The notes under the pieces: generated by a model
Databases searched by the model: none
What the model was told of the DNA's origin: nothing
Seen by the model: the letters and a program-made list of their open reading frames with translations, nothing else
In this document: positions 4,627 through 22,698 of the stretch, piece after piece
Position numbering within the stretch: the stretch's first letter is position 1
How the letters are laid out: each line of letters starts with the position of its first letter
From: Patescibacteria group bacterium
GTDB taxonomy: Bacteria; Patescibacteriota; Minisyncoccia; Phycocordibacterales; JAKFXT01
Direction of reading: 5' to 3'
Assembly: GCA_021731245.1 (NCBI GenBank)
Contig: JAKFXT010000019.1
Location: forward strand, 1 to 55,153
DNA length: 55,153 nt
Program-made: the position numbers and the translations under genes

Positions 4627-6150
4627 TTAATTTTCTTTTTGTCTATACTGCAGTGCTTCCAAAATGTGTTTTGGGAGAACAAATCTTTCGTGTTCTAAAT
4701 CTGCAATGGTGCGTGCTAATTTTATAACTTTGTGATAGCTTCTGGCTGATAGTTGTAATTTTTCGGCTGAATTATTTAAAATCTCTCTTACCTCTTCGTT
4801 TAGTGGCACCAAATTTTCTATATCTTTGGCACTCATATCAGCGTTTAGCATTTTCTTTTTCTTACCCCCAAATCTTTTTTCTTGGTGTAGTCTTGCAGCA
4901 ATAACTTCTTTTTTAAATTCAACGCTGCCTTTGGCTTTTGTTTTTTCCCCCAAAATTTTGTGTTTTACCAAAGGCACTTCAATCCACATATCAATTCTGT
5001 CCGCTATGGGTCCGGAGATTTTCTTTTTGTATCTGCCAATATCTTTTGGTGTGCAGACACAGGGCTTTGTGCTTCCAAAATTCCCACATGGGCACGGGTT
5101 CAGCGCTGCAACTAAAATAAAATTTGCTGGGAAAATGCCACTTCCCTTTACACGAGTTATAGAAACTATTTTATCTTCCAGCGGTTGTCTTAAAGCGTCA
5201 ATTACACGACGCTCAAATTCTGGGAATTCGTCCAGGAAAAGAACTCCGCGATGGGAAAGAGTTACTTCTCCAGGACGAGGAAAAGATCCTCCACCAACCA
5301 AAGATATATAGGAAGCAGTGTGATGTGGGGCACGGAATGGCGGAATTGCTATATAACTTTCTCTTAAATTTCCAGAAACAGAATGAATTGCCGTAACCTC
5401 TAGTATTTCTTCATAAGAAAGTTCTGGGAGTATTGAAGTTAAAGCTCTCGCCAACATAGTTTTGCCAGTTCCTGCTGGGCCATATAAGGCGATATTGTGC
5501 CCGCCGGATGCGGCTATTAAGAGCCCACGCTTTCCTGCTTCTTGTCCTTTGATATCAGAAAAATTTCTGTCATCTAGATTTTCTGGTATTTTTATTTTAG
5601 TTTCTTTTTGTTGTATCAAAACAGGAGCTTTACTCAGAAGATGTTTTATAAGTTCTGATAAATTAGAAACTGGGTAAATTTTAATATCACGAATTAGCGC
5701 GGCTTCTTCAGCGTTATCTTTCGGAACATATATTTCTTTGAATCCTTTTTTCTTAGCTGTTTCAACGAGAGGTAATATTCCAGTAACGGCTCTTAAGTTT
5801 CCATTTAAAGATAACTCACCAATAAATATTTTGTCTTTTGTTTCAAAATCAATTTCTTCTTTGGCCAGTAAATACGAAAGAGCGATAGCGACATCATGAA
5901 GTGGACCTTCCTTTTTTAAATTTGCAGGGGCCAAAGAAACTACAATTTTTTGATTGTGAGATTTGGGAGATGAAAACCCAGAATGTTTTATGGCAGCGGA
6001 AACCCTATCTTTGGCTTCCTCGTTCGCTTTGTCAGCTAATCCTATAATTGAAAAATTGTGAAGACCTTTAGAAAGGTCAACTTCAACATCAATAATAAAT
6101 CCTTCTAATAAATGTGTTTGGGCGCTATGAACTTTCCCAATTTGTGCCAT
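4627..6150 (-). CDS. comM: YifB/ComM family Mg-chelatase-like AAA ATPase
   Basis: GPAGTGKTMLARAL, HHTASYISLVGGG, FLDEFPEF, ALNPCPCG motifs. Confidence 0.95.
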   Translation of the reverse strand: MAQIGKVHSAQTHLLEGFIIDVEVDLSKGLHNFSIIGLADKANEEAKDRVSAAIKHSGFSSPKSHNQKIVVSLAPANLKKEGPLHDVAIALSYLLAKEEIDFETKDKIFIGELSLNGNLRAVTGILPLVETAKKKGFKEIYVPKDNAEEAALIRDIKIYPVSNLSELIKHLLSKAPVLIQQKETKIKIPENLDDRNFSDIKGQEAGKRGLLIAASGGHNIALYGPAGTGKTMLARALTSILPELSYEEILEVTAIHSVSGNLRESYIAIPPFRAPHHTASYISLVGGGSFPRPGEVTLSHRGVLFLDEFPEFERRVIDALRQPLEDKIVSITRVKGSGIFPANFILVAALNPCPCGNFGSTKPCVCTPKDIGRYKKKISGPIADRIDMWIEVPLVKHKILGEKTKAKGSVEFKKEVIAARLHQEKRFGGKKKKMLNADMSAKDIENLVPLNEEVREILNNSAEKLQLSARSYHKVIKLARTIADLEHERFVLPKHILEALQYRQKEN

Positions 6151-16951: not shown

Positions 16952-17623
16952 ATGAGTGTTTCAATTAAAGAACAATCCATTCTACTCCGAAAAAATGGGG
17001 CTACTTACTCCGAAATTTCTGCCAAACTTAAGGTAAGTCGGGGCCTTCTTTCCAAGTGGTTTGTAGGACTTCCCTTGTCCTCTTCCGAAAAAGAGGGCCT
17101 TTTGAAGCATCAAAAAGAGGTGGTTCTTAGAAGTCGAAGTAAGAGCAAATTGAGTCGCCAAATGAAGAAGGTTTTTGGCGAAAGACAGGCGCTTGTGGGT
17201 GGGCAAAAAAGCTTCAAAAAGTTTCAGGCCGACCCTCGATTTTTGGTCGGACTTTCTATGTATCTTTCTCACGGATCATTCAATAACCCATACCTACAAT
17301 TTAGTTCTGATGATGAGGGGGCGGTCCAAATATTCCTAGATTGGCTCATTCGCTTTCTTGCTGTGCCGGTCTCTTCCATTCGCTGTAGATTGTATATAAA
17401 CAGCAATATCCCCTACTCTGAAGCTCAAAGTGGCTGGATTAGGAAAATAGCTATAAATGATAAGCAGTTTTTGAGCCCGGTAGTGTATAAAACTAGACAG
17501 AAATCCAAAGAAAATGGCTCAAATAAAGGGTTTTTACAGATTACTGTGCCAGGTATCAACAATATACGCACCCTTAGCGTTTGGAAAAACCTTCTTTTTG
17601 AGCTTTATAAGAAAAAAGCTTAA
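16952..17623 (+). CDS. HTH + LAGLIDADG-like protein (paralogue A; acidic motif degenerate)
   Basis: N-terminal HTH (YSEISAKLKVSRGLLSKWF); LVGLSMYLSHGSF aligns with the GEG motif of paralogues B and C; convergent with tRNA-Arg. Confidence 0.7.
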   Translation: MSVSIKEQSILLRKNGATYSEISAKLKVSRGLLSKWFVGLPLSSSEKEGLLKHQKEVVLRSRSKSKLSRQMKKVFGERQALVGGQKSFKKFQADPRFLVGLSMYLSHGSFNNPYLQFSSDDEGAVQIFLDWLIRFLAVPVSSIRCRLYINSNIPYSEAQSGWIRKIAINDKQFLSPVVYKTRQKSKENGSNKGFLQITVPGINNIRTLSVWKNLLFELYKKKA

Positions 17624-17762: not shown

Positions 17763-18428
17763 ATGTATATGAGAACAGATAAGAAAGAAGCTTTTGAATT
17801 AAGGAAGCAAGGAAAAACCTTCAATGAGATTTCTAAGAGTCTTGGCATTTCTAAGGGCACTCTCTCCTTCTGGTTTAAGGGTATTGATTGGTCAAGGGAA
17901 ATTTCGGAAAAGAACTTTGTTTTCAACTACTCCCCTGAAAATATAAAGAAAATGCACATAGCCAGACGTCATATGCTTGATAAAAAATATTTATTAGCAC
18001 GTCAGGAAGCCCTAAACGAATTTGATAAATATAAGGAAGAAACGCAATTTGTGGCTGGTATTGTAGCCTATTCTGGTGAGGGTGATCATTCTGTAAAAAA
18101 TGGTATGGCGCGCATAGCAAATTCAAATCCAGGAATTATCCTTATTTTTAAACGTTTTTTAGAGAAATACTATTTTGAAATGTATAAAAAAATACGTGTA
18201 AGCATATTACTTTATCCGGATTTAAATGATGAGGAGTGTTTAAAATATTGGTCAGAAACTTTAGGTGTCTCAATCAAACAATTCCATAAACCAGTACATA
18301 TAATAGGAAAACATAAAAAAAGACGATTGCGATATGGAGTTGGAAGCCTTATAATCAGCAATAAGTTTTTTAAAATTAAACTTTTGGAATTAGAAAACTT
18401 GTGCTTACAACATTTAGCGCGGATATAG
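17763..18428 (+). CDS. HTH + LAGLIDADG-like protein (paralogue B)
   Basis: HTH (FNEISKSLGISKGTLSFWF); VAGIVAYSGEGDH; RIANSNPGIILIFKRFL; C-terminus and TAG stop lie inside the tRNA-Gly gene. Confidence 0.75.
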   Translation: MYMRTDKKEAFELRKQGKTFNEISKSLGISKGTLSFWFKGIDWSREISEKNFVFNYSPENIKKMHIARRHMLDKKYLLARQEALNEFDKYKEETQFVAGIVAYSGEGDHSVKNGMARIANSNPGIILIFKRFLEKYYFEMYKKIRVSILLYPDLNDEECLKYWSETLGVSIKQFHKPVHIIGKHKKRRLRYGVGSLIISNKFFKIKLLELENLCLQHLARI

Positions 18429-19238: not shown

Positions 19239-19634
19239 ATGGAAGCTACTAAGAAATGTCTTTACTGTAATAAATTTTATGCCCCAGATCGTTTTGGTGT
19301 GGCGCTGACCACTTCCCAAAAAGTTTATCGTCGCCAAAAATGTTCGAATTGTTATAGGGAGACAAAACAGAAACTGATACAAAAACATCTTTCTTGGATT
19401 AATGATTATAAAAAGGAGAAAGGATGTACTAGATGTGGTAATATTGACCCGCGAGTCCTTGATTTTCACCATAGGAATGGTAAAGATAAGCTGTTTGGCT
19501 TAGGAACTTTTCGCAGAGCTGTTGGCTTTGAAAGAATAAAAAAGGAAGTTGAAAAGTGTGAAATTGTTTGTGCAAATTGCCACAGAATTTTACATTACGA
19601 AATGAGGCAAGAAAATACAAAAAACGGGGCGTAG
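19239..19634 (+). CDS. HNH endonuclease-like protein
   Basis: CLYC, CSNC, CTRCGNIDPRVLDFHHRNGKD, EKCEIVCANCHRILHYE; stop codon inside tRNA-Pro. Confidence 0.88.
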   Translation: MEATKKCLYCNKFYAPDRFGVALTTSQKVYRRQKCSNCYRETKQKLIQKHLSWINDYKKEKGCTRCGNIDPRVLDFHHRNGKDKLFGLGTFRRAVGFERIKKEVEKCEIVCANCHRILHYEMRQENTKNGA

Positions 19635-19695
19635 TATACCGGCAGTACGCTTGTTTTGGGAACAAGTAGACTGGGTTCGATTCCCAGCGCCCCGA
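19625..19695 (+). tRNA. tRNA-Pro (anticodon UGG)
   Basis: CGGGGCG...TTTGGGA loop...GGGTTCGATTCCC...CGCCCCG A; CCA not encoded. Confidence 0.95.
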
Positions 19696-19700
19696 CAATT

Positions 19701-20393
19701 ATGAAATTAAGAAAGATTAGAGGAGGTAATATAGAAGACCTTCAATCTAAAAAATACAATATAGGAGTTGGTATTAGTTTGGGTAACAGATGGTTTACTC
19801 CTTCTAATATCGTAGAAGAGGTAAGGTGGGCTTTGCAGTATACAAAAAAATACGTTGTTATATATGTTGCTGATTCCATACACGCAATTAATTTGGAAGT
19901 CAGAAATAAAATCTCTAAAGAAAAGGCCCTGCGTTCAGCAAATAGGGCTGGAGATAAAATTTTAAAGGAAGTGAAACTTGAAATAGAGAAAAATTTTGAG
20001 TCAATAGATTTCATCAAAATACAATACGCAAAATGGGATGATCTCATTGATGATGATTACAGGAAAAAATTGGCATACCTTTATTCCTTCTATGGTAAAA
20101 ATGATAAATTTAAATTTAACATCCACAATCTTGTAAAAAGCCATCTTTCAAAAGAAGGAGATAGATTTTCTGAAGAAGATATTCATAAATTAGGAACATA
20201 TATTATTGAAGAAATGCCAGAAGTTATGTGTAGAGTTGGTATAAAAGGCAACGTATACGAAGCATACACGTACCCTTTTGATGGAGAGTTGCCAAAGTTT
20301 GTAGAGGATATTCAGAAAGGAATAATTTTCCCTGAAATAAAAGAAAGCATAATGAATACAGAGCCGAAAGTGTTCCTTGAAGTTAACCTGTAA
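19701..20393 (+). CDS. tRNA-dependent cyclodipeptide synthase (CDPS)
   Basis: GISLGNRWFT aligns with AlbC GISAGNSYFS (Ser37); YIIEE aligns with Tyr178/Glu182; ungapped counting gives Y202-P203. Confidence 0.87.
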   Translation: MKLRKIRGGNIEDLQSKKYNIGVGISLGNRWFTPSNIVEEVRWALQYTKKYVVIYVADSIHAINLEVRNKISKEKALRSANRAGDKILKEVKLEIEKNFESIDFIKIQYAKWDDLIDDDYRKKLAYLYSFYGKNDKFKFNIHNLVKSHLSKEGDRFSEEDIHKLGTYIIEEMPEVMCRVGIKGNVYEAYTYPFDGELPKFVEDIQKGIIFPEIKESIMNTEPKVFLEVNL

Positions 20394-20425: not shown

Positions 20426-20743
20426 ATGTCACCAATACTTAAAACAGCGATTGTTAATGCTCTAGGGACAGCCCTGTATATTGCTCTAATTTCTACTTTT
20501 ATGTTTTATGGGCCAGAGTTTTTGGGCGAACCTGATACACCGGACTCTGTTTTGCTTCCCATAATGATGATATCTCTTTTTGTTTTTTCAGCCGCTATAA
20601 CTGCCGGACTTGTTATAGGAAGACCTATAATGTGGTTTTTGGAGGGAAAGAAAAGGGAAGCGGTCACGCTCTTTGTTTACACTCTCGCTATTTTCCTAGT
20701 AATTATTATAGGAATAGTCGGTTTAGTTGCCTTTGTTCACTAA
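20426..20743 (+). CDS. hypothetical three-TM membrane protein
   Basis: 105 aa, three hydrophobic segments. Confidence 0.65.
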   Translation: MSPILKTAIVNALGTALYIALISTFMFYGPEFLGEPDTPDSVLLPIMMISLFVFSAAITAGLVIGRPIMWFLEGKKREAVTLFVYTLAIFLVIIIGIVGLVAFVH

Positions 20744-22029: not shown

Positions 22030-22698
22030 GTGCATATGAAATTGGCTTTAAGAAAAAAAGCTGAGGGACTACGCTTAGGAGGATATTCTTATACTTATAT
22101 ATCTAAAAAATTAAATGTATCAAAAGGCACTTTAAGTCAGTGGCTTTCTCTTGTTCCTTATACTCCAAATAAAGAAACCATAGCCGTTATAGGGAAAGCC
22201 AGAGTGGCTTCTGGGTTGGTAAAACATAAGTTAAAACTTAAATCTATAGCTGATGCTAAAACAGAAGCTGAAAAAGAAATAGGGAATCTTTCCGAAAGAG
22301 ATATTTTTATGTTGGGTTTAGGTATCTATATTGGTGAAGGAGCGAAAACCCACAGCATTATACGCCTTATTAATTCAAATCCTGATATAATCAAATTCGC
22401 AGTAAAATGGTTTAAGGAATCTTGCGGTTTAAGTATAAGCAATATTAGGATTAGGTTGCATCTTTATCCTGATAATAACGAAAGTAAATGCATTGATTTT
22501 TGGTCTAAAGTCACAGGCATTCCTAGAAACAATTTTCATAAAACCTATATTGATAGGAGGGTAAATAAAAAACTTGCGAAAAGAGGTAAATTGCCTTATG
22601 GTACTGCACATATTGGCATTAAAAGTTTGGGGCAAAAGAAATTTGGGGTTTTTCTTTCAAGAAAGATTAATGCCTGGATTGATAGGGCTTTGAAATAA
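22030..22698 (+). CDS. HTH + LAGLIDADG-like protein (paralogue C)
   Basis: HTH (YTYISKKLNVSKGTLSQWL); LGLGIYIGEGAK; RLINSNPDIIKFAVKWF; IRLHLYPDNNESKCIDFWSKVTGI. Confidence 0.77.
   Translation: MHMKLALRKKAEGLRLGGYSYTYISKKLNVSKGTLSQWLSLVPYTPNKETIAVIGKARVASGLVKHKLKLKSIADAKTEAEKEIGNLSERDIFMLGLGIYIGEGAKTHSIIRLINSNPDIIKFAVKWFKESCGLSISNIRIRLHLYPDNNESKCIDFWSKVTGIPRNNFHKTYIDRRVNKKLAKRGKLPYGTAHIGIKSLGQKKFGVFLSRKINAWIDRALK

Follow-up and report, generated by a model that had tools for sequence, protein, structure and literature searches.

Cyclodipeptide synthases (CDPSs) are enzymes that turn the amino acids of charged tRNAs into small ring-shaped dipeptides, and their specificity is hard to predict. 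An initial annotation had placed such an enzyme in a 55,153-nucleotide stretch of Patescibacteria DNA (hereafter, the window). The source genome comprises 694,538 bases, is 95.6% complete and carries one CDPS copy; a search of this genome found no second. This raises the questions of whether the locus encodes a genuine CDPS and which product it would make. The gene and its key codons are located as follows.

19701–20393, plus strand: CDPS gene, 230 aa, XYP subfamily, ParcuCDPS clade (PF16715, TIGR04539, ungapped match to 7QB8, AlphaFold2 model)
19776–19778, plus strand: nucleophile codon Ser26, equivalent to AlbC Ser37 (alignments)
19863–19874, plus strand: codons 55–58, with Tyr55 (P1 histidine pocket) and Asp58 (hydrogen bond to Ser26) (alignment; roles from PMC7613923)
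20199–20222, plus strand: codons 167–174, with Tyr167 and Glu171 (AlbC Tyr178 and Glu182) and Glu174 (P1) (alignment; PMC7613923)
20265–20276, plus strand: codons 189–192, with Tyr189 (P1) and Tyr191-Pro192 (XYP signature, AlbC 202–203) (alignment)

The ORF list and the sequence place the start of the frame at the ATG at 19701 and its stop at 20393. A longer version from a TTG at 19656 (245 aa), lying within a tRNA gene, was rejected because the close homologues all start at the residue of ATG 19701. The frame matched both Pfam PF16715 (27.9 bits, cut-off 27) and NCBIfam TIGR04539 (47.7 bits, cut-off 45), and the divergence of the clade explains why the Pfam score is barely above its cut-off. 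When the PDB was searched with phmmer, the crystallised ParcuCDPS (7QB8) was recovered as a full-length match (E = 3.6e-65), and residues 1–228 align to it without a gap at 48% identity. The AlphaFold2 model, for which 16 window and locus sequences served as input, reached a mean pLDDT of 95.1 and a pTM of 0.89. Its best PDB match in Foldseek was wild-type ParcuCDPS, again 7QB8 (E = 4.1e-23, TM 0.87/0.90); the best seven matches were all ParcuCDPS, wild-type and mutants, with CDPSs from Streptomyces, Porphyromonas, Fluoribacter and others ranking next. The predicted model has the Rossmann-type CDPS fold, with AlbC (3OQV) matched at E 4.2e-7 and TM 0.58/0.62. The identification made in the initial annotation is thus borne out by both profiles, by the 7QB8 match and by Foldseek, and the checks that it had proposed, an HMM match and a superposition of residues, came out in its favour, with both curated cut-offs exceeded and the key residues in place.

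The initial annotation had also counted out residue equivalences to AlbC, and these proved correct in the alignment: Ser37, Asn40, Tyr178, Glu182 and Tyr202-Pro203 correspond to S26, N29, Y167, E171 and Y191-P192 (equivalences from PMC7613923). The catalytic Ser37, Tyr178, Glu182 and Tyr202 of AlbC are therefore present as S26, Y167, E171 and Y191. All seven catalytic and subfamily residues (S26, N29, D58, Y167, E171, Y191 and P192) are kept, and six of these (N29, D58, Y167, E171, Y191 and P192) are invariant across 16 CPR and archaeal homologues. ParcuCDPS, classed as an XYP enzyme (PMC5816076), cannot do without the hydrogen bond from Asp58 to its nucleophile (PMC7613923). The XYP signature requires Tyr202-Pro203 and leaves position 40 free; the window enzyme has Y191-P192 together with N29, a trio that it shares with ParcuCDPS. 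An Asn at position 40 alongside Tyr-Pro had been taken as an NYH trait beside the XYP signature. The residues are there as described, but the reading of N29 as a hybrid NYH/XYP trait was discarded: the X in XYP means that the position is not conserved, and ParcuCDPS, itself an XYP enzyme, carries the identical Asn. As judged from sequence and predicted structure, the ORF at 19701–20393 encodes a genuine XYP-subfamily CDPS whose active site is intact.

A protein with the CDPS fold might nonetheless be inactive, or might serve some other function that depends on aminoacyl-tRNA, for example the regulation of tRNA-Pro or the aminoacylation of a different acceptor. The absence of tailoring genes nearby and the tRNA-Pro gene abutting the CDPS gene would both suit this idea, and some XYP enzymes were inactive when tested in E. 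coli (PMC5816076). We consider it highly improbable, given that the full catalytic set is kept, that ParcuCDPS, 48% identical and equipped with the same residues, is active (PMC7613923), and that relatives have different abutting tRNAs (Pro, Gln or Ser) or none, leaving no matched partner.

A CDPS from Parcubacteria had been mentioned in the initial annotation as already reported, and this is confirmed by the 48%-identical orthologue ParcuCDPS, from the same group, which has been expressed, its products identified, and crystallised (PMC5816076, PMC7613923). ParcuCDPS is CDPS 90 of Parcubacteria bacterium RAAC4_OD1_1 (ETB63777.1); its structure was solved (PMC7613923) and is available as PDB 7QB8, together with mutants. 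Upon expression, it yielded 44% cHP and 56% cHE (PMC5816076). The two enzymes align without a gap and are identical in the catalytic set, in D58 and in the triad Y55/E174/Y189; each is a single gene, and both genomes are near 0.69 Mb. In contrast, they differ in the P2 pocket and in their gene neighbours, tRNA-Pro in the window and a PLP-dependent decarboxylase gene next to ParcuCDPS. The closest relative found, with 62% identity to the window CDPS, is that of Parcubacteria group bacterium LiPW_30 (L031/L002). Its triad is identical and its P2 (LSYKFSD) similar, but its gene is flanked by pheT and a gene for a C39-like peptidase. AlbC of Streptomyces noursei and other NYH/XYP CDPSs share the fold and the catalytic Ser/Tyr/Glu/Tyr with the window enzyme, whereas identity in the structural alignment is only ~14–20% and the pockets differ. 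The window CDPS thus adds one more member to a clade that is already known and has been characterised structurally; it is nothing new in kind.

Which amino acids would this enzyme join? For the CDPS with H in P1 and P/E in P2, the published pocket motifs are GAYAWELY (P1) and FEWKYTR (P2) (PMC5816076). By fitting these motifs to the ParcuCDPS sequence, we assigned positions 22, 24, 55, 110, 112, 174, 175 and 189 to the P1 lining and positions 144, 147, 148, 151, 193, 195 and 196 to that of P2; this mapping returns both motifs exactly on ParcuCDPS. In the window enzyme, P1 reads GGYAWEVY, differing at two of the eight positions (A24G and L175V). The histidine triad Y55/E174/Y189 is intact, and the enzyme also has Asp58, as ParcuCDPS-like histidine-accepting CDPSs do. 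P2 reads LSHKFGE; it shares one of seven residues with that of ParcuCDPS, includes R196E, and does not correspond to the motif associated with Pro/Glu.

In the trapped acyl-enzyme of ParcuCDPS, His sits in P1, mutants in Y55, E174 and Y189 lose histidine use or show it reduced, and E174A and E174H abolish it (PMC7613923). Since all three residues whose mutation hurts histidine use are kept, histidine is predicted as the P1 substrate and is probably the first building block of the window CDPS. The positive P2 pocket of ParcuCDPS was suggested to favour Glu (PMC7613923); as Arg196 is replaced by Glu, cyclo(His-Glu) is disfavoured, and Pro or a neutral residue appears likelier in this place. Our best prediction for the product is consequently cyclo(His-Xaa), where the sequence does not determine Xaa and Glu is disfavoured. 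The product had been described as unknown in the initial annotation; the intact triad now turns the P1 residue into a specific prediction.

Alternatively, this could be a true CDPS in which P1 no longer selects histidine, making another product such as cyclo(Tyr-Xaa) or cyclo(Gln-Xaa). P1 shows subtle changes (A24G, L175V), P2 has diverged as described, two or three P1 changes are enough to switch ParcuCDPS to Leu or Phe (PMC7613923), and P1 residues have changed within the clade: seven of its nine enzymes keep the triad, but it is altered in L021 (H174, L189) and in L010 (N189). Even near relatives may therefore differ in whether they use histidine. We regard this alternative as unlikely for the window enzyme, because none of the three residues that experiments tie to histidine selection has changed.

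Our model is therefore that of a working CDPS producing cyclo(His-Xaa) from histidyl-tRNA, probably co-transcribed with tRNA-Pro, and we hold this reading as a whole to be likely. Histidyl-tRNA(His) would bind in P1, where Tyr55, Glu174 and Tyr189 would surround the imidazole, and Ser26, positioned by Asp58, would accept the histidyl group to form a histidyl-enzyme. A second aminoacyl-tRNA at P2 would then take the histidyl group, giving a dipeptidyl-enzyme, and cyclisation, aided by the conserved tyrosine and the Glu171 region, would release cyclo(His-Xaa). The cell would use or release this product, with no modifying enzyme evident close by. The analysis shows the family, the catalytic and pocket residues, the gene spacing and a confidently predicted fold; activity, the choice of histidine, read-through expression and any role toward a host or neighbouring cell are what we infer for this gene.

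Three features lie in the immediate surroundings of the gene.

19239–19634, plus strand: 131-aa ORF, small and zinc-finger/HNH-like, which overlaps tRNA-Pro at its 5' end; HNH assigned by eye (CxxC...HHRNGK...CANCH); context only
19625–19696, plus strand: tRNA-Pro (anticodon UGG), ending 4 nt before the CDPS ATG (ARAGORN; Rfam RF00005, 59.4 bits)
20426–20743, plus strand: membrane protein of 105 aa whose start lies 32 nt past the CDPS stop; context only

The 4-nt gap between tRNA-Pro and the ATG contains no Shine-Dalgarno motif and leaves no room for one, or for a promoter, so the tRNA transcript probably also carries the CDPS; going by spacing alone, the two genes are probably co-transcribed. 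The initial annotation had overlooked this tRNA neighbour. Cutting at the tRNA 3' end would leave a nearly leaderless CDPS message, which would then be translated.

Similar arrangements occur in relatives. Three of 11 members lie directly behind a same-strand tRNA (window, 4 nt; L023, 6 nt; L025, 9 nt), and the L021 gene starts 71 nt behind one. The upstream tRNAs are Pro in the window, Gln in L023, Ser in L021 and an intron-bearing archaeal tRNA in L025. The last of these loci (L025:5884-6687) encodes a Pacearchaeota CDPS with 40% identity; its intron-bearing tRNA has a long variable arm and is probably tRNA-Ser(GCU), and a partial second tRNA-like copy lies at 5729–5783.

One could hypothesize that this adjacency is functional, either through co-opted tRNA transcription units or through the neighbouring tRNA serving as P2 substrate, which would give cyclo(His-Pro). 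Such a proposal is compatible with our model, as it concerns the setting and not the enzyme. ParcuCDPS does use Pro-tRNA, and the chance of seeing the adjacency described above is P ~1e-5 to 1e-3 against a background of 0.4–2% of genes, a post hoc value from a small sample in which the background comes from individual stretches of the genome and its lower rate (0.4%) assumes about 750 genes. Against it, the hypothesis was picked after the data had been seen, and ORFs abutting tRNAs are common: an ORF starts within 5 nt of three of the 36 tRNAs examined in this genome, the CDPS being one of the three, and in relatives that have no CDPS at that site (L086, L101 and L106) unrelated ORFs lie 4–5 nt behind tRNA-Pro. 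CDPS genes also follow closely behind pheT, prfA and an MGMT-like gene, and tRNA identity does not track the pocket. We therefore find a functional adjacency doubtful and treat it as a lead, not a finding. The narrower idea of tRNA-Pro as a specific substrate partner is unsupported; relatives stand behind tRNA-Gln, tRNA-Ser, protein genes or no tRNA, so the link is not tied to the substrate.

As the initial annotation had stated, no tailoring oxidase adjoins the CDPS; a cyclodipeptide oxidase, a P450 and a methyltransferase are all absent alongside, unlike in many NYH/XYP CDPS clusters, which contain oxidases, P450s or methyltransferases (PMC5816076). The 105-aa membrane protein was considered as a dedicated exporter and ruled out, since many genomes have relatives of it without a CDPS match (18 of the 20 genomes with relatives, among 98; the other two have a CDPS match in the same set). 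Nearby genes in the window also encode a trypsin-like protease, a CCA-adding enzyme, a UPF0102 nuclease-like protein, HU and RNase Y.

Four small window ORFs (16952–17623, 17763–18428, 19239–19634 and 22030–22698) abut or overlap tRNAs (Arg, Gly, Pro and Gly, respectively) within a 6-kb stretch. Three are similar-looking helix-turn-helix proteins of ~220 aa and one is the 131-aa HNH-like protein; none of the four has a Pfam match above the cut-off, and their appearance suggests genes of the homing-endonuclease type linked to tRNAs. Elsewhere, in genome G043 (contig C1, 152639–152771), the 3' half of a tRNA-Pro (39 bases) is repeated at 95% identity 22 nt beyond that gene, and G058 (contig C21) has a similar partial copy; both are possibly traces of insertion at tRNA 3' ends.

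The CDPS gene has a G+C content of 31.7%, compared with 38.2% for the window (2.6th percentile of equal-sized stretches), which fits, but does not prove, a fairly recent arrival. Within the order, 15 of 397 genomes have a CDPS match; the figures are 8/387 for the class and 8/382 for the phylum, and even in a single family only two of 41 genomes have one. Among 85,462 species genomes, an alignment-based scan recovered 13 CDPS loci, including RAAC4_OD1_1 and several DPANN archaea (the Pacearchaeota L025 and the Nanoarchaeota L026 and L030), whereas a single-sequence scan of genome contigs returned no relatives. None were found in viral contigs, giving no evidence of phage carriage. A quick tree placed the window CDPS as sister to L031 (SH-aLRT 96) within the nine-member ParcuCDPS clade (support 84), next to a group that mixes archaeal and CPR sequences. 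Gene neighbours differ from locus to locus: pheT (L031), prfA (L022), an MGMT-like gene (L020), a PLP-dependent decarboxylase gene (L024), tRNA-Gln (L023) and tRNA-Ser (L021). Such patchiness, with no conserved neighbourhood, is the pattern expected of a lone gene moved between genomes. A bolder scenario would have a promoterless, lone CDPS lineage spreading in the ultra-small CPR and DPANN by landing behind tRNA and other translation genes and being expressed from their transcripts, its His-diketopiperazine following tRNA supply and acting on hosts or neighbours; we rate it as quite improbable. Among open-access papers, we found nothing relevant on CDPSs in DPANN or CPR.

Several of the other loci have features of their own. 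A Paceibacterota CDPS (L032:1622-2947) is fused to a SAM methyltransferase domain in one 441-aa frame, in which the Pfam CDPS model reports no CDPS half; in L029/L003, a separate methyltransferase gene lies 14 nt downstream of the CDPS. Cys replaces the catalytic Ser (residue 26) in L029, L030 and L032, and also in L016, L019 and L043 (PICLGN or AICLNN). S26C ParcuCDPS kept activity (PMC7613923), which makes natural cysteine-nucleophile CDPSs plausible; open-access papers yielded nothing relevant on such enzymes. In LiPW_30, the pheT gene directly preceding the CDPS (L031:3646-5991) contains, by eye, an NlpC/P60-like stretch inside the synthetase (HAFNCSSLISYLYKG...DHVGMYLGGGKIVHSTR).

These Patescibacteria and DPANN make few building blocks of their own and yet keep a CDPS, which raises the question of the compound's purpose. 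The nine relatives of the clade, some retaining the P1 triad and others with it broken, and with P2 pockets that vary, form a natural test panel for the histidine-recognition rule that mutagenesis established on ParcuCDPS. This panel, the prediction of a product with histidine first, and the wider sharing of a single-gene pathway among CPR and DPANN are what the locus adds to the known clade. It also adds to the evidence that genome-reduced Patescibacteria and DPANN archaea, which are probably host-dependent, keep and exchange an enzyme that makes small molecules.
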